A DNA stretch of 46,788 nt, taken from a virus. The DNA is taken from positions 1-46,788 of IMG/VR virus record IMGVR_UViG_3300042306_000394; one strand, given 5' to 3'. Positions 23,260 to 30,609 of this stretch are shown here, piece by piece (the first letter of the stretch is position 1; each line of letters starts with the position of its first letter). Made by a program: the position numbers and the translations under genes. The notes beneath the pieces are model-generated. The model saw only the letters and a list, made by a program, of their open reading frames with translations. It was not told where the DNA came from and made no database searches.

Positions 23260-25269
23260 ATGGGACTTAAATTTAGACGCGGTAGTACCGCACAACAATC
23301 CGGTTCATTAGCATTCGGAGAACCATATGTGAACACCACATTGGGAACATTAGTAGTAGGTGGAGCAACAGGCGATATCATACTATCATCAACAGGTACG
23401 GGAAGTACCGGTAATTTCGGTGCAATTTCTGGTTCAGGATTGGATATTACAGGAAATGCAAATATAGCAGGTAACTTAACATTAGGTGGAAAATTAACAA
23501 TAGGAGATGCAACATCCGATACTGTTAATGTAGTAGCATCTTTAAGTTCATCACTTATTCCATCAGTAACAAACGCATTTGATTTGGGTTCTGAAAATTA
23601 TTTTTGGAGAGACCTTTATATATCAACAGGTTCAATCAAATTTGTTGGAGCAGCTGGTCAAATTGTAGGTACATTATCCAATACAGGTAATGGAATAGCT
23701 TTGGATGGTGGTGTGGTAGCAAATGGTAATAGTACATTTGGTACATCATCAGCAGCAGTAACATCAATAACCGGTTCATTAAGAGTTAGTGGTTCAATTA
23801 CAACAATAGGTGCTGTAACTGCAACATCGTTTAACGGAACAATAAATGCAAACAACGGAGTAGTAAGTGGTTCATCACAAGTAATTGGAATATTAGATTC
23901 ATTAAACACTTACACAGGTTCAATCAACACAACTATTAAGAGTAAGTTGGATGCAGATGGTGTAATTAGTGGTTCATCGCAAATATTGGGTGGAAGTGGA
24001 TTAGTAAGTGGTTCATCACAAATAACATTGAGTTCAACTACGGGATTTTCAGCATATTCAACATCAGTAGATAGTAGAATTACAACTGAAAAAGGTAGAG
24101 TGGATGCAATATTATTAGCAGCAGATGCAGATAAAGATTCATTTGCAGAAATCGTAACCTTAATCAATTCAGTAGATTTATCAAATGATACTACATTCGC
24201 ATCATTCTATACTGCAAGTGTTGGAAGATTAAACAATTTAGAATCAACATCTGGAAGTGTAAATGTTTCTGTAAGTAATTTAAATACATATACAGGTTCA
24301 AACGATACAACTAACGGAACACAAAATACAAGATTAACGGCATTAGAAGCATCAGCATCTACCGCATTATCTACAAATGGTACACAAGCTACTTCAATTA
24401 CAAATTTAAACTCTTTCAGTTCTTCGGCATTAACAAGATTAACTGATTTAGAAGGTAAAGATTTTAATATTACGTTAACAGGTGATGTAACGGGTACAGG
24501 TACTGTAACTAATTTAGGTAACGTATCATTTGCAACTACAATCGCAGCTGATTCAGTAGCATTAGGAACTGATACAACGGGTAACTACGTTGCAAGTTTA
24601 GTAGCAGGAACTAACATCACACTTTCTAACAATAGTGGTGAAGGAGCAACTCCAACAATTGGATTAACAAATAACACAATTTCTGGTATCTCTTTAGGTT
24701 CTAACTTAGCAACCTTAACAATTGGTACGGGATTAAGTGGTACATCATATAATGGTTCTACCGGAGTAACAATTGCAAACACCGGTGTAACTTCAAACGT
24801 TGCAGGAACGGGTGTAACTGTAAGTGGAGGAACTGGAGCAGTAACTATCTCAATCGGACAATCGGTAGCAACTTCTGCTAACGCACAATTCAACTCATTG
24901 GGTATAGGTATGGCAGCATCCGCTACCGCTGGTAGAATCGATGCAACAAATGATATCGTAGCATACTCATCTTCTGATATTCGTTTCAAAGAAAACATTA
25001 CTCCAATTGAAAATGCATTGGATAAGATTTCTAAGATTAGTGGTAACACTTATGATTGGAAAGCTGAAAACAAAGTTGAGCACGGATACGAAGGAAATGA
25101 TGTGGGTGTAATCGCACAAGAAATTGAAGTAGTATTACCTCAATTAGTTCAGACAAGAGAAAATGGTTTCAAAGCAGTTAAATACGACAAATTAGTAGCA
25201 TTGTTGATTCAGGGTATCAAAGAACAACAAATACAAATTGAAGAATTGAAGGCAAAAATAGGTTTATAA
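23260..25269 (+). CDS. Tail fibre with C-terminal S74 chaperone (669 aa)
   Basis: The N-terminal attachment module (LKFRRGSTAQQSGSLAFGE) is followed by LGGKLTIGDATSD and a FDLGSENYFWRDLYIS segment, both also present in the 1501-residue fibre (LGGTITIGDTTSD, YDLGKAST). The shaft carries three SGSSQ motifs and the 59-residue EKGRVDAILLAADADKDSF block shared with the 1056-residue fibre. A beta domain with VTGTGTVTNLGNVSF and GATPTIGLTNNTISGIS follows; it is a common phage shaft repeat. The end is an S74 chaperone: SDIRFKENI at residue 572, NTYDWK, VGVIAQEIEVVLPQ, YDKLVALLIQGIKEQ. It is closely similar to the end of the 1501-residue fibre. The glycosyltransferase gene begins 3 bases after its stop, so the two are co-transcribed. 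Confidence 0.87.
   Translation: MGLKFRRGSTAQQSGSLAFGEPYVNTTLGTLVVGGATGDIILSSTGTGSTGNFGAISGSGLDITGNANIAGNLTLGGKLTIGDATSDTVNVVASLSSSLIPSVTNAFDLGSENYFWRDLYISTGSIKFVGAAGQIVGTLSNTGNGIALDGGVVANGNSTFGTSSAAVTSITGSLRVSGSITTIGAVTATSFNGTINANNGVVSGSSQVIGILDSLNTYTGSINTTIKSKLDADGVISGSSQILGGSGLVSGSSQITLSSTTGFSAYSTSVDSRITTEKGRVDAILLAADADKDSFAEIVTLINSVDLSNDTTFASFYTASVGRLNNLESTSGSVNVSVSNLNTYTGSNDTTNGTQNTRLTALEASASTALSTNGTQATSITNLNSFSSSALTRLTDLEGKDFNITLTGDVTGTGTVTNLGNVSFATTIAADSVALGTDTTGNYVASLVAGTNITLSNNSGEGATPTIGLTNNTISGISLGSNLATLTIGTGLSGTSYNGSTGVTIANTGVTSNVAGTGVTVSGGTGAVTISIGQSVATSANAQFNSLGIGMAASATAGRIDATNDIVAYSSSDIRFKENITPIENALDKISKISGNTYDWKAENKVEHGYEGNDVGVIAQEIEVVLPQLVQTRENGFKAVKYDKLVALLIQGIKEQQIQIEELKAKIGL
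24067..24243 (+). repeat. 59-codon module duplicated between two S74 fibres
   Basis: This block matches 15609-15785 in the 1056-residue fibre at equal length (177 bp). Both contain EKGRVDAILLA, DADKDSFAEIV and FASFYTASVGRLNNLE. Copies of this module occur in fibres of other phages, probably as a trimerisation segment. Confidence 0.85.
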
Positions 25270-25272
25270 TCA

Positions 25273-26271
25273 ATGTATGATATATACTACACCACCGCTG
25301 GAGGACCTTGGTTCAACAGCGGTGCTGATATATGGGTAACTAATTGGATAAAAGAAGTGGCACCTCATTTAGAAGTGAAGCCACTTCTTCTATTCCATAG
25401 ACATAAACCTACTAATTACGAAGAATTTCCAATTGATATCGACCATATTTGGGAAACATCCGAAGATAAAATCATTGAAATATTAGAAGGTGCAAGAAGG
25501 ATACATATTTTACATGGTCATTATACTCCAACCAGAGCTATTCATCAAAATTTGGAAAAGATTGATTCAATAGTTTTCCATAATTTAACTAAAGTGTCTT
25601 TAATGGCACAGCAAGATAAAGATGAATACTTGCATTGGTACGGAAATTGGGAATACGAAAACGAATTAATAAATAAAATTAAAAATAAAGTTTGGGTAGG
25701 ATTGTATCATTTTCCATATGAAACGGAAAATTTACATCATATTCCAAACAATTATACATTTATTAAAAACAATGAACTTTCAAACTCAACGGAATTAGGA
25801 TACGCAGCAAGAGTTGAGGGTAGAAAGAATGTTGAATATATGGATGGGTTAGGTGGATTCATTTCTACTAATTCAGAAACATTCAACAAATATTATAAAA
25901 AGAAATATGGATACAAATTTGAAAAAGCAAAAATTTACAAATTTGATTACAAATATAAAGAAAAGTTCTATGGACTTGATTGGGGAATCTCTCATTCTTG
26001 TTTTGAATATGAACCATTCGGATACGGAATTTTTGAAGCAGTGGATTGGGGGAAACTTCCAATATTACATGAAAAATGGCACGTACCACTTGATTATAAA
26101 TACAAAGCGAGTGATACGTTATCGTTTAGAGAGACCTACAAAACGATATGTGAGGATGATTACGAAACCCGTAAAACGGAATTTGGAAAACTTAAAAATT
26201 GGATGATTAAAAACTTTTCAAATAAAGATAGTTGGAAAGAAAAACTTTTAGATATTTATAACGGAGAATAA
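25273..26271 (+). CDS. GT4-type (GT-B fold) glycosyltransferase
   Basis: This 332-residue protein has the layout of a retaining GT-B glycosyltransferase. The N-terminal Gly-rich strand is TTAGGPWFNSGADIW (residues 7-21). GYAARVEGRKN at 176-186 is the usual nucleotide-sugar phosphate-binding R-x-x-x-KN region. FEYEPFGYGIFEA at 244-256 contains the E-x7-E pair, Glu247 and Glu255. The predicted role is transfer of a sugar from an activated donor; donor and acceptor cannot be read from sequence. It has no signal peptide or membrane segment, so it acts in the cytoplasm. It lies between a Ser/Thr-rich fibre and an adhesin, 3 bases after the former, which suggests glycosylation of virion proteins during late infection. 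Modification of DNA or host surface glycans is an alternative. Its last codons contain the promoter-like element of the next gene. Confidence 0.75.
   Translation: MYDIYYTTAGGPWFNSGADIWVTNWIKEVAPHLEVKPLLLFHRHKPTNYEEFPIDIDHIWETSEDKIIEILEGARRIHILHGHYTPTRAIHQNLEKIDSIVFHNLTKVSLMAQQDKDEYLHWYGNWEYENELINKIKNKVWVGLYHFPYETENLHHIPNNYTFIKNNELSNSTELGYAARVEGRKNVEYMDGLGGFISTNSETFNKYYKKKYGYKFEKAKIYKFDYKYKEKFYGLDWGISHSCFEYEPFGYGIFEAVDWGKLPILHEKWHVPLDYKYKASDTLSFRETYKTICEDDYETRKTEFGKLKNWMIKNFSNKDSWKEKLLDIYNGE
26252..26260 (+). promoter_or_regulatory. Putative late promoter element ATATTTATA inside the end of the glycosyltransferase gene
   Basis: Exact ATATTTATA, 21 nt before ATG 26282, overlapping the codons for the C-terminal LDIYN of the glycosyltransferase. 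The spacing matches the intergenic copies. Confidence 0.5.
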
Positions 26272-26281
26272 TACATAACAT

Positions 26282-28027
26282 ATGCCAAGGACAAATTTAT
26301 CATTAGGAAATCTATTTAGAGCAACGCAGGGTTCGGCAAGAACTACTCAGCAAGTTTCAATGAATTCAATGAACGCTGCAGCGGGAACAGCCGCAGCATT
26401 TAGTTCATTCGCAGTAGATTCTGTAACTGCAAATTTGCCTACATACACTTATGTAGTAGAAAGTACATCAGAAACAGCAACGTTTTCATTTGGCTCACAA
26501 GGTTCTTTGCATGGAGCAAGAGTTGGTAGTGTGGCTGCAAATTATACGGTATCATTTGATAACGCAAACTTTTCAGTAGGTTCTCCAACATTAGGAGCAT
26601 CTCCATCGTTTCCAATCACACCGGCATCAATCGCAGCATCAAACTATTCAGAAGCACAATCTACATTATCAATGAGATATGCAGATGGATACAATTTAGC
26701 AGCAACAAACTATAATGTAGCATCTACAAAAGTATTATACGCAGTGGATGTTTATAATACAATTAACCAACCTGATTTTTGTTTATTATTTGGTACAAAA
26801 GTAAAATTATCAAACAATACGGAAATCAATGTTGAAGATTTAAATGTTGGCGATGTAATTAAAGCATGGGTGCCAGCAGGATTACCGGATGAGAATTTAG
26901 ATGCAGATTCAGACCAAATAGAATGGCGTTTTCATCATTTAGATTCATTGGAAGGTACACCACAAGAGGTAGTAGTTTCTGATTTAACATTTAACTTTGC
27001 ATCTGGCTATTTTTCAATAAACGATGGTGCTATAAAAGCAACGGGTACTCACCCATTATTTGTATGGGATAACGAAATTGAAAAATATAAATTTAAAAAC
27101 GTAGAAGATATTCTTCCTGGCGATAAATTAGTAAAATCAGATGAAACCGAAGAATTGGTTTATGATATAGCAATGATAGAGGAAGATATTGAAATTGTAA
27201 CTATTAATGTTGAAAGTGCTGACGTTTATATTTCAAACGGATATATATCACATAATAAAATTGGTGGTACAAATGCACAACCATCTATTCCTGCAGCAGG
27301 TTTAAGAATGTATTTAGACCCAACTAAGACGGCATCATTTGGAGCAGGTTCTTTACCATCAACTGGCACACCATCGGTGGACTGGTTAGATTTGACAGGA
27401 TATGGAACAGGTGTTAGACCATCTGCTCAATCTCCAATGGAGAGAAGTGGTGGTAACCCATCATATAACAATGGTGCAAGTAGAAAAGAAAGATATTATT
27501 CTTTTGATGGCGGTGATTTATTCTTTAAAGATACATCATCAAATATTAGTGGAGGTTCAACGCAATTTAATACATCAGCATATAGTATTGGTGCATGGCT
27601 TAGATTACCTTCAACTCCATCGGTAGGTTGGTATTTAATATTTGGTAAACAAAGTTCCGCTCCTTCTAGAATTATGGCATTCTATTTATATTCATATGGA
27701 AATGGTACATATCTATTACATGATGGAACGACTGGTGGTGGAAATAGTAACACATTTAGTTTAACTAATAATGTTTGGTACTTCGTTGGTTATACAGCGG
27801 CTCAAAATGGTACAAATGTATTCTACTTAGATAATAGTGCAATTGGAACGGTATCAAATGGTTCAACTACTTACACTACATCAGCACAAATTATGATTGG
27901 TGGTAATCAGGTTGAAGGTACTAACTTCTACACCGGCCATTTAGGACCAGTATTATTCTACAACACTCAATTGAGTGGAACGAATATGGGAAACATTTAC
28001 AATCATTTCTCACCAACATACAAATAA
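26282..28027 (+). CDS. Lectin-like virion adhesin interrupted by a Hint (intein-like) domain (581 aa)
   Basis: There are three parts. Residues 1-166 are an Ala/Ser-rich domain of unknown fold, starting PRTNLSLGNLFRATQG as in a virion-attachment segment. Residues 167-325 are a Hint domain: Cys167 in FCLLFGTKVKLSNN, EDLNVGD at 185-191, block B ATGTHPLFVWD with Thr254 and His257, EDILPGDKLV at 275-284, and the closing YISNGYISHN with His324-Asn325. From about residue 336 there is a LamG/concanavalin-like lectin domain (SIGAWLRLP, NVWYFVGYTAAQNG, LGPVLFYNTQLS). After Asn325 comes Lys326, not Cys, Ser or Thr, so normal protein splicing is unlikely. Cleavage, as in bacterial intein-like domains, is expected. 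No homing endonuclease is present (159 residues). It sits between the glycosyltransferase and the sheath gene, so it is a late virion protein by position. Confidence 0.82.
   Translation: MPRTNLSLGNLFRATQGSARTTQQVSMNSMNAAAGTAAAFSSFAVDSVTANLPTYTYVVESTSETATFSFGSQGSLHGARVGSVAANYTVSFDNANFSVGSPTLGASPSFPITPASIAASNYSEAQSTLSMRYADGYNLAATNYNVASTKVLYAVDVYNTINQPDFCLLFGTKVKLSNNTEINVEDLNVGDVIKAWVPAGLPDENLDADSDQIEWRFHHLDSLEGTPQEVVVSDLTFNFASGYFSINDGAIKATGTHPLFVWDNEIEKYKFKNVEDILPGDKLVKSDETEELVYDIAMIEEDIEIVTINVESADVYISNGYISHNKIGGTNAQPSIPAAGLRMYLDPTKTASFGAGSLPSTGTPSVDWLDLTGYGTGVRPSAQSPMERSGGNPSYNNGASRKERYYSFDGGDLFFKDTSSNISGGSTQFNTSAYSIGAWLRLPSTPSVGWYLIFGKQSSAPSRIMAFYLYSYGNGTYLLHDGTTGGGNSNTFSLTNNVWYFVGYTAAQNGTNVFYLDNSAIGTVSNGSTTYTTSAQIMIGGNQVEGTNFYTGHLGPVLFYNTQLSGTNMGNIYNHFSPTYK
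26780..27256 (+). other. Hint domain (bacterial intein-like), catalytic residues intact except the +1 position
   Basis: This segment encodes Cys167 to Asn325. Nucleophile Cys, TxxH (Thr254, His257) and the terminal His-Asn are all present, which would allow N-S acyl shift and Asn cyclisation. The following Lys lacks a side-chain nucleophile for transesterification. Expected products are separate N-terminal and lectin parts, or attachment of the thioester to another nucleophile. Confidence 0.8.
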
Positions 28028-28095: not shown

Positions 28096-30609
28096 ATGGC
28101 AGAAAAAATAGTATCACCGGGCGTATTTACAAAAGAAAACGACCTTTCATTCTTACAACAGGGTGTAGCTGAAATCGGTGCAGCATTCATCGGACCTTTT
28201 AAAGAAGGACCATTAACTCCTACAATCGTTAACTCACAATCTGAATTCGAAACTCTATTTGGAGTAGTTGATGATACATATTATACTCCATTAGCAGTAC
28301 AATCATATTTAAGAGAAGCTGGAACTGCAACTATTTGTAGAGTAGCTGGTGTTGGTGGATATACCGAAACCGCTCCTTTATTGATTAGTGCAACTAATTT
28401 AGGACAAATTGATTCGTTATTAACATCATCAGCAGGAACAAATTATTCAGCATCAGATGGTACTTCAAATGGTACAGCCCCTATATATTTTCAGGGTGGT
28501 ACATTTGCAACGAATCCATCGGCATCGGCAACAATTACAAATGGTACAATTAGTGCAATATCTATTACTCAAAAAGGTAGTGGATTGACAGTAGCACCTA
28601 CTTCAATATTCGTATCACAATCAGCTGCAAGACTTGCAGATGATATAGTTACTGCTAGTTTTGATATCACATATGATGTATCTGGTTCAACTGCAGCAAT
28701 TTTATTTAATACCGCAGTAGGAGCAAACGCAGGTTTTTCAACCGCAACTTTAGCAGATAATGATGGTAATGGTGATTTCTACTTAGATGGAGGATTAAAT
28801 GTATCGGCATCTCTAAAAGTAACCGATATAAATGATGTTGAAGCTGTATTTGGAACATCGGCATTTGGTTCTAAAGATGCATATGTATATGGATATTTCA
28901 AAAATAGTGGTATAAATTTTGATTCACACGCATCTTGTTCTGTAAATGTATTAGATGAACAAGATTTTACGTTTGATGCACAAGAAGCATTGACACCAAT
29001 GATTCAATCTCAATTGATTAGTGGTGATAGAACTCCTTTATTCCAATTTGAAACAATCGGAGCAGGTAATGCAGCAAACACTAAAGTAAAAATAGGTATT
29101 ACAAATATTAAAGCAGCTGGTTCTGTAAACGGAACTGATTATGGTGTATTTACCGTAGTTGTAAGAGATTACGCTGATACTAATAAGAAAAAGACTGTAT
29201 TAGAAACTTGGGCAAATGTAAACTTAGACCCTAATTCTCCAAACTTTATTAGTAGAGTAATTGGTGATAGAAAATTAACTATCAATTCTGAAGGTAAAAT
29301 TTCAGAAAGTGGTGATTGGGTTAATAATTCAAAATATGTTAGAGTAGCTCACTTAAACGTAGCAGCTCCTATACAGGCAGTACCTTTCGGACACGAAGCT
29401 TACACTTTACCAGTATCTGCATCAGCAGCAATTAGTTCAAAGATTCCATCCGTATCATTCGTAACTGCATCAGTATCACAATATGGTGGTATCGATTTAG
29501 ATTTAAATACTGATAACGCAATTTACTTAAAACCAATTCCAGTAGGAGCAAGTGTAGGTAAAAACGTAGCATTTGGATTAGATGCAGTAAATGGTGGTTC
29601 ATTATCAGTAGGTTCAACTTCAGCACAATTCGTTGTAGCATTCCAAAATGGATTTGATGGTATGAATCCGGCAACACCAATTGCAAAAGCAGGTGAAGCA
29701 GCATTTGAAGTTGGAACTAACTCACAAGGTTTCAATTTGGCAACATCGACCGCAAGTGGTTCGGTAGCATACGCTAAACACATCGCAGCATTATCAAATG
29801 CAGATGAATTTGATATCAATATGGTTGTAACTCCAGGTGTTGTAAGAAGATTACACCCTTCAGTAGTAACTTCAGTATTAGATATGGTTGAGCAAAGAAA
29901 TGATTGTTTCTATATTATGGATTCAACTTCAGTAAACGATTCAATTAGTTTAGTAACTGCACAATCAGACGCAATTGATTCAAATATGGTAGCAACTTAC
30001 TATCCTTGGGTTAAGACAATTGATATTAACACAAACAAATTAATTTCAGTACCACCTTCAGTATTATTACCTGGCGTATTCGCAGCAAACGATAGAGTAG
30101 CAGCAGAATGGTTCGCACCAGCCGGTTTAAATAGAGGTGGATTAGTAGGAGCAGTTAGTGTATTGAATAGATTAACACAATCTGAAAAAGATACATTATA
30201 TGAAGCAAAAGTAAATCCAATTGTACAATTCCCTGGACAAGGCATCGTTGTATTCGGACAAAAAACTTTACAAGATAAACCATCTGCATTAGATAGAATC
30301 AACGTAAGAAGATTATTATTGACTGTTAGAAAGTATATTGCATCTACATCTCGTTATTTAGTATTTGAGCAAAACACATCAACGACTAGAAATAGATTCT
30401 TAAACATAGTTAATCCGTATTTAGAATCAATCCAACAAAGACAAGGTTTGTACGCATTCCGTGTTGTAATGGATGATACTAATAACACACCAGATGTAAT
30501 TGATAGAAACATTATGAAAGGGGCTATCTACTTACAACCAACTAAGACAGCTGAATTCATTCAAATTGATTTCAACATCTTACCAACTGGCGCCGCTTTT
30601 AACGGATAA
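28096..30609 (+). CDS. gp18: Contractile tail sheath protein, T4 gp18-like, with inserted domain
   Basis: The N-terminus (SPGVFTKENDLSFL, AAFIGPFKEGP, QSEFETLFG, YYTPLAVQSYLREAG) is the standard myovirus sheath start. The C-terminus (DRINVRRLLLTVRKYI, LVFEQNTSTTRNRF, FRVVMDDTNNTPDVID, AEFIQIDFNI) is the conserved sheath core that builds the interlocked rings around the tube. At 837 residues it is about 180 longer than T4 gp18 (659). Residues about 97-175 hold an inserted beta module (ITNGTISAISITQKGSGL) that resembles the G-x-GY modules of the 1501-residue fibre. It probably protrudes from the sheath surface. The tube gene follows 48 bases later. Confidence 0.95.
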   Translation: MAEKIVSPGVFTKENDLSFLQQGVAEIGAAFIGPFKEGPLTPTIVNSQSEFETLFGVVDDTYYTPLAVQSYLREAGTATICRVAGVGGYTETAPLLISATNLGQIDSLLTSSAGTNYSASDGTSNGTAPIYFQGGTFATNPSASATITNGTISAISITQKGSGLTVAPTSIFVSQSAARLADDIVTASFDITYDVSGSTAAILFNTAVGANAGFSTATLADNDGNGDFYLDGGLNVSASLKVTDINDVEAVFGTSAFGSKDAYVYGYFKNSGINFDSHASCSVNVLDEQDFTFDAQEALTPMIQSQLISGDRTPLFQFETIGAGNAANTKVKIGITNIKAAGSVNGTDYGVFTVVVRDYADTNKKKTVLETWANVNLDPNSPNFISRVIGDRKLTINSEGKISESGDWVNNSKYVRVAHLNVAAPIQAVPFGHEAYTLPVSASAAISSKIPSVSFVTASVSQYGGIDLDLNTDNAIYLKPIPVGASVGKNVAFGLDAVNGGSLSVGSTSAQFVVAFQNGFDGMNPATPIAKAGEAAFEVGTNSQGFNLATSTASGSVAYAKHIAALSNADEFDINMVVTPGVVRRLHPSVVTSVLDMVEQRNDCFYIMDSTSVNDSISLVTAQSDAIDSNMVATYYPWVKTIDINTNKLISVPPSVLLPGVFAANDRVAAEWFAPAGLNRGGLVGAVSVLNRLTQSEKDTLYEAKVNPIVQFPGQGIVVFGQKTLQDKPSALDRINVRRLLLTVRKYIASTSRYLVFEQNTSTTRNRFLNIVNPYLESIQQRQGLYAFRVVMDDTNNTPDVIDRNIMKGAIYLQPTKTAEFIQIDFNILPTGAAFNG

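Follow-up and report, generated by a model that had tools for sequence, protein, structure and literature searches.

In the stretch of viral DNA analysed here (46,788 nucleotides, hereafter the window), a gene within a contractile-tail cluster encodes a Hint domain lodged between a conserved N-terminal domain and a lectin domain, and the residue that directly follows the terminal His-Asn of this Hint domain, Lys326, is invariant. The same lysine recurs in unrelated phage and bacterial Hint-ended proteins, which hints, as far as sequence can tell, at an uncharacterised way to cut or join proteins. The reading that we favour, to which we give slightly less than an even chance, is that an amine of Lys326 would resolve the N-terminal thioester of the Hint domain and join the N-domain to the lectin.

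The window, a 46.8-kb IMG/VR viral record, carries a T4-like contractile-tail gene cluster with Peptidase_S74 fibres, a tail sheath, a gp19-like tube, a tape measure and UvsX. The Hint gene (26282..28027, + strand, 581 aa) is flanked by S74 fibre genes and, downstream, by the tail sheath gene (28096..30609, +; phrog_23, E=2.6e-67). Its product consists of an N-terminal domain ending in NTINQPDF (aa 1-166; 26282..26779, +), the Hint domain (aa 167-325; 26780..27256, +), a linker and a LamG, or concanavalin-like, lectin domain (aa 419-566; 27536..27979, +). The first-pass annotation had described the C-terminal half as LamG-like, and PF13385 agrees (E=7.7e-9; 36.3 bits, above the curated cut-off of 27.6); the LamG part of a full-length AlphaFold2 model, which was otherwise poor (pLDDT 48.5) and useful for this part alone, matched pentraxin-like and lectin-like folds in Foldseek. 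The N-terminal domain had been called virion-like, a label that no profile match backs, as PHROG and Pfam searches returned nothing for it. It is conserved in all homologues and, across the contigs and phage records searched, was seen in this protein only: none of 50,697 phage records matched it, isolated phages gave no homologue, and there was no paralogue in the window and five long contigs, where it is single copy. One S74 fibre of the cluster (window 23260-25269) has a sub-threshold match to the N-terminal domain of Mtd (E=6e-5), a family known from the targets of diversity-generating retroelements.

On its own, the protein gave no Hint match above Pfam cut-offs and no match in a PDB sequence search, and family members gave weak Pfam matches to Intein_splicing, Hint_2, Hint and PT-HINT. 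Because the call for the lone sequence fell below these cut-offs, structure prediction and profile comparison were used to test it. For residues 157-340, a 17-row alignment gave an AlphaFold2 model with a mean pLDDT of 66.5 and poor confidence around its C-terminal junction. The top 15 PDB entries that Foldseek matched to this model were exclusively bacterial intein-like (BIL), intein and Hedgehog domains, headed by Tetrahymena BIL2 (6y75; E=4.7e-6, probability 1.00) and followed by a Clostridium BIL, inteins and Hedgehog; at E<=0.001, nothing besides these three kinds of domain was retrieved. In addition, an independent profile built only from other phage and bacterial Hints aligned with the family over the span Cys167-Lys326 (hhalign probability 99.5, E=7e-23) and, in a profile search, retrieved members of it at E=3e-23 and 4e-22. 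The profile comparison called for in the first-pass annotation thus recovers the fold, and both model and profiles confirm residues 167-325 as a predicted member of the Hint superfamily with Cys at position 1 and a block B TxxH. A Pfam AXH match to the same region (26789-27067, aa 170-262; E=0.0035) was set aside, given that Hint and AXH profiles are similar and that undoubted Hints, too, are hit by AXH. Many phage Hints, those of L432, L378 and L520 among them, match this Pfam (ataxin-1) model strongly, at E values down to 2.6e-23, and a terminal-Hint profile conversely matches ataxin-1 chains; these mutual profile matches point to relatedness between AXH and Hint.

Translation of the open reading frame places the catalytic residues where they had first been noted, with Cys167, the block A nucleophile, at 26780..26782, block B (T254-x-T-H257, here T254-G-T-H257) at 27041..27052 and the block G pair His324-Asn325 at 27251..27256, all on the + strand. 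The +1 residue is Lys326 (27257..27259, +), which bears out the initial observation that Cys, Ser and Thr are absent from this position. Alignment to the His-Asn pair puts Thr307 (27200..27202, +) at the block F:4 position usually held by Asp, and Asp314 (27221..27223, +) at the block-F His position. Scans of viral contigs yielded at least 126 distinct complete homologues. When the +1 residue was compared across them, it was Lys in all 126 listed, and the same set is invariant for Asp165-Phe166, Cys167, Thr254, Thr256, His257, Thr307, Asp314 and Ser323-His324-Asn325. Counting every distinct Hint-bearing ORF listed, 146 of 150 have Lys at +1, the other four being distant Hints.

Among the 126 homologues listed, minimum pairwise identity is 53% for the Hint and 21% for LamG, the most variable segment. 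The identities of N-domain, Hint and lectin are nearly uncorrelated across pairs (r = 0.09-0.20): Hints can be 93-96% identical in a pair whose lectin domains share 31-41%, other pairs show the reverse, and the switch in identity between homologues falls after about residue 326-350. Judged by these alignments, the lectin segment is subject to mosaic exchange, as expected of a receptor-binding module. The gene product is probably a phage surface protein, likely of the tail. No Hint-less allele appeared among the matches listed in an N-domain search of homologues, by a DFK pattern scan, or in the window and five long contigs. Four apparent Hint-less homologues (L235, L240, L311 and L348) were rejected, as each reflects a frameshift or stop in the gene or a contig end. 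Two of them are damaged family genes, L235 with a frameshift and deletion and L311 with one in-frame stop just ahead of SHNK, and either may be an assembly error.

To test the +1 residue elsewhere, we searched with DNA patterns for Asn-Gly-phi-phi-x-His-Asn-X-stop, leaving X free and requiring set codons and a TAA stop. The scan of IMG/VR gave at least 120 pattern matches (L380-L499), and a complete scan of 84,980 prokaryote genomes with Val before His gave 43 (L500-L542). Among the matches listed, 30 terminal ORFs are Hint-supported, falling into nine clusters at 40% identity, and X is Lys in 29 of them (24/25 viral, 5/5 from prokaryote genomes) and in eight of the nine clusters, compared with 8/133 of the pattern matches that have no Hint support; Fisher's test gives p of about 1e-23 when related sequences are counted as independent. 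When 12 of these terminal Hints, which are 21-72% identical to the first of the set, are aligned, Cys1 and Lys, both free in the scan pattern, are invariant, while Asn-Gly and His-Asn were imposed by it. The N-parts of the terminal-Hint proteins include FN3, PASTA, LRR, FGE/Lcl and virion-structural sequences. A preference of translation termination for C-terminal Lys explains the pattern poorly, since the lysine is internal in the window family and the trend is absent from non-Hint matches. Lys326, which had at first been taken as a plain loss of the nucleophile, is by these comparisons a selected residue, because it is invariant in the family and the rule in other terminal Hints. We found no account of a Lys-type Hint, or of Hints in phage virions, in the open-access literature.

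Several of the HN-K-stop proteins listed carry two or more tandem Hints. Triple-tandem proteins of 768-769 aa, ending in HN-K-stop, are encoded in two contigs of 245 and 198 kb that also carry the window family (L378:3818-6121, +, and L379:7168-9474, -); their junctions read HN|C, HN|F and the terminal HN-K-stop, and their N-part has an ATP-grasp-like 'RLMEINTDTA' motif. Phage NCTB gp135, a free-standing 153-aa Hint gene (L025:8013-8474) ending in HN-K-V-D-stop, adjoins genes for other Hint tail proteins.

The lysine also goes together with a second change. The commonest F:4 residue of inteins is Asp, an aid to the +1 nucleophile that is not strictly required (Mills 2014, PMC4031507). All 29 Lys terminal Hints listed lack it, with Asn, Thr, Gln, Ser or Ile instead (in the L521 and L537 Hints the loop is one residue shorter and F:4 is Asn), as do all 126 homologues of the window family listed, where F:4 is Thr307. 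The lone non-Lys terminal Hint (X = Ser, one of the 30 listed) retains F:4 Asp. The same pairing is seen within a single 484-kb phage, LR756508 (W01, LR756508.1), in which the Hint of a fibre that we read from its repeats as YadA-like ends in HN-K-H-stop and pairs F:4 Ser with +1 Lys, while in several further Hints or inteins of other large ORFs (C1:143500-149800) F:4 is Asp and +1 is Thr or Cys. As the F:4 Asp is missing from Lys Hints and kept with Ser, Thr or Cys, +1 Lys appears from these alignments to mark a different active-site state, not random loss.

A second gene accompanies the family. Directly upstream of the Hint gene lies a 332-aa gene (25273..26271, +) whose product resembles GT-B glycosyltransferases by motif only; Pfam and PHROG searches returned no match for it. 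Of the 225 loci that could be tested, some of which share contigs, 219 have it no more than 200 bp upstream of the Hint gene. A 35-37% identical gene in LR756508 adjoins the Hint-ended fibre gene, in which just Lys-His follows His-Asn, so the partnership is repeated around another protein layout. Such tight pairing (window 25273-26271; L309:4485-5501) occurs in two separate groups of phages. One possible role for this partner is modification of the Hint protein or of what it gives rise to.

How, then, might Lys326 act? The protein would be made as a precursor of N-domain, Hint and lectin domain, with both ends of the Hint catalytically intact by their residues. The Phe166 acyl group would pass to Cys167, forming a thioester, and cyclisation of Asn325 would cut the chain before Lys326. 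The thioester could then be attacked by the Lys326 side-chain amine, giving a Phe166-Lys326 isopeptide as reported for Tetrahymena BIL2, or by the Lys326 alpha-amine freed by Asn cyclisation, which would amount to splicing of the type-A BIL kind. Either route would excise the Hint and leave N-domain and lectin domain linked. Invariance of both Hint ends argues for chemistry at both, which one cut alone would not need, and invariance of the lysine argues that it does something specific; these points, the Lys rule elsewhere and the BIL2 precedent are why we favour the Lys326 amine. Several observations weigh against it. The lysine could have a structural or a catalytic role and yet accept nothing; it is not universal, since +1 is Ala, Val or Thr in related phage Hints (Alexandravirus, a Yersinia phage, NCTB); and splicing in the HN-K-stop proteins would add one Lys only. 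The model, weak at the C-terminal junction, yields no Lys-Cys geometry, and the homologues listed include no Hint-less allele resembling a spliced product. Furthermore, characterised type-A BILs yield mostly cleavage products (PMC4031507).

The chief rival to ligation by the Lys326 amine is plain double cleavage, in which the thioester after Phe166 is hydrolysed and Asn cyclises before Lys326, leaving separate chains and Lys326 merely supporting the cut. We regard this as possible and clearly less probable than ligation. It fits the behaviour of type-A BILs, which lack a +1 nucleophile and mostly cleave, the absence of the F:4 Asp that helps such a nucleophile, and the finding that alleles swap LamG segments with little dependence on the Hint; however, any non-nucleophile would then serve at +1, yet Lys is found in 126/126 homologues and 29/30 terminal Hints listed, and cutting the lectin from its anchor would be odd for an adhesin unless the parts remain associated. 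The first-pass prediction that the domain cleaves rather than splices keeps the support of type-A BILs, which mainly cleave (PMC4031507), but with Lys invariant it is neither the sole nor the likeliest reading. Its other suggestion, covalent joining, has a parallel in BIL2, structurally the nearest relative, for which an isopeptide to a Lys side chain is reported (PMC8616854).

Transfer in trans, by which the N-domain would move from the Hint thioester onto a virion or host-surface partner, at a Lys, N-terminus or glycan, is improbable: the placement of many phage surface-protein Hints at the extreme C-terminus resembles the Hedgehog layout, and the glycosyltransferase-like gene is a constant neighbour, but where, as here, the Hint is internal and a conserved lectin follows, joining in cis is the better fit. 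Hedgehog with cholesterol and BIL2 with Ras offer analogies for such transfer. BIL2 also conjugates ubl4 to other substrates (PMC8616854). An inactive Hint retained as a structural module would accommodate the two broken alleles (the L235 frameshift and L311 stop, perhaps assembly errors), but all reaction residues are invariant in the 126 homologues listed, and we consider this reading improbable too, a shade more so than transfer. Least credible of all is an ordinary mobile intein with canonical splicing: the domain is internal and its blocks A, B and G are intact, but Lys326 in place of a +1 Cys, Ser or Thr already contradicts canonical splicing, there is no homing endonuclease and no F:4 Asp, and no Hint-less allele was found among the homologues listed.

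Ligation by the Lys326 amine could extend beyond this family. It is conceivable, though we consider it rather doubtful, that Hints with +1 Lys and no F:4 Asp form a class of their own by mechanism, frequent at the termini of surface-type proteins from phages and some from bacteria, where a Lys amine resolves the thioester by isopeptide-type splicing or Lys capping and, here, mounts an exchangeable lectin covalently on a tail protein. If Lys is the acceptor, a widespread Hint class would make isopeptide or amide bonds without ATP and without a +1 thiol or hydroxyl. That would be a new chemistry for protein ligation, usable as a tool, and would give phage adhesins a maturation step that is covalent. 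Should cleavage be all that occurs, the invariant +1 Lys and loss of F:4 Asp would still define a recognisable Hint subgroup of phage surface proteins, and the role of a +1 residue other than Cys, Ser or Thr becomes a question open to point substitutions.

Among known systems, canonical class 1 inteins differ from the window family in having the +1 Cys, Ser or Thr and the F:4 Asp that Lys326 and Thr307 replace here, and in Hedgehog Hog domains a sterol-recognition region follows the Hint where LamG follows it here. The Peptidase_S74 fibres of the same cluster are likewise self-processing tail proteins, but with an unrelated fold and chemistry (intramolecular chaperone). Homologous Hints end tail-cluster proteins of Alexandravirus, Sasquatchvirus and Yersinia phage fHe-Yen9-02 (phrog_38766; family profile E of about 1e-8 to 1e-10), but these have a collagen- or Ig-like N-part, about 10 residues after His-Asn, +1 Thr or Val, and F:4 Asp; a protein of this type in Erwinia phage Y3 is annotated 'contains intein domain'. 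The tail-cluster proteins gp132, gp135 and gp136 of phage NCTB also carry homologous Hints, and gp135 shares the HN-K-V-D ending, but gp132 and gp136 have +1 Ala and gp135 is free-standing. Tetrahymena BUBL1 BIL2 (PDB 6y75, 6tmm), the best Foldseek match, resembles the window Hint in lying between two domains and in its non-Asp F:4 (His), but it is eukaryotic and flanked by ubiquitin-like domains, and its acceptor Lys lies in the neighbouring ubl5 or in other substrates. Type-A BILs, as described in PMC4031507 and PMC7765530 (Amitai 2003; Dassa 2004), share the Hint fold, Cys1, TxxH, a C-terminal His-Asn, the lack of a +1 Cys, Ser or Thr and residence in variable surface-type proteins. Without a +1 nucleophile they mostly cleave, with some splicing in which the amine of the freed C-fragment attacks the thioester (Mills 2014, PMC4031507). 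The window gene differs in being a phage tail-cluster gene with a lectin domain, and in the invariant +1 Lys and uniform loss of F:4 Asp, which we did not find described for BILs in PMC4031507 and PMC7765530. The best reading of the window Hint is an A-type-BIL-like autoprocessing domain, predicted to be active.
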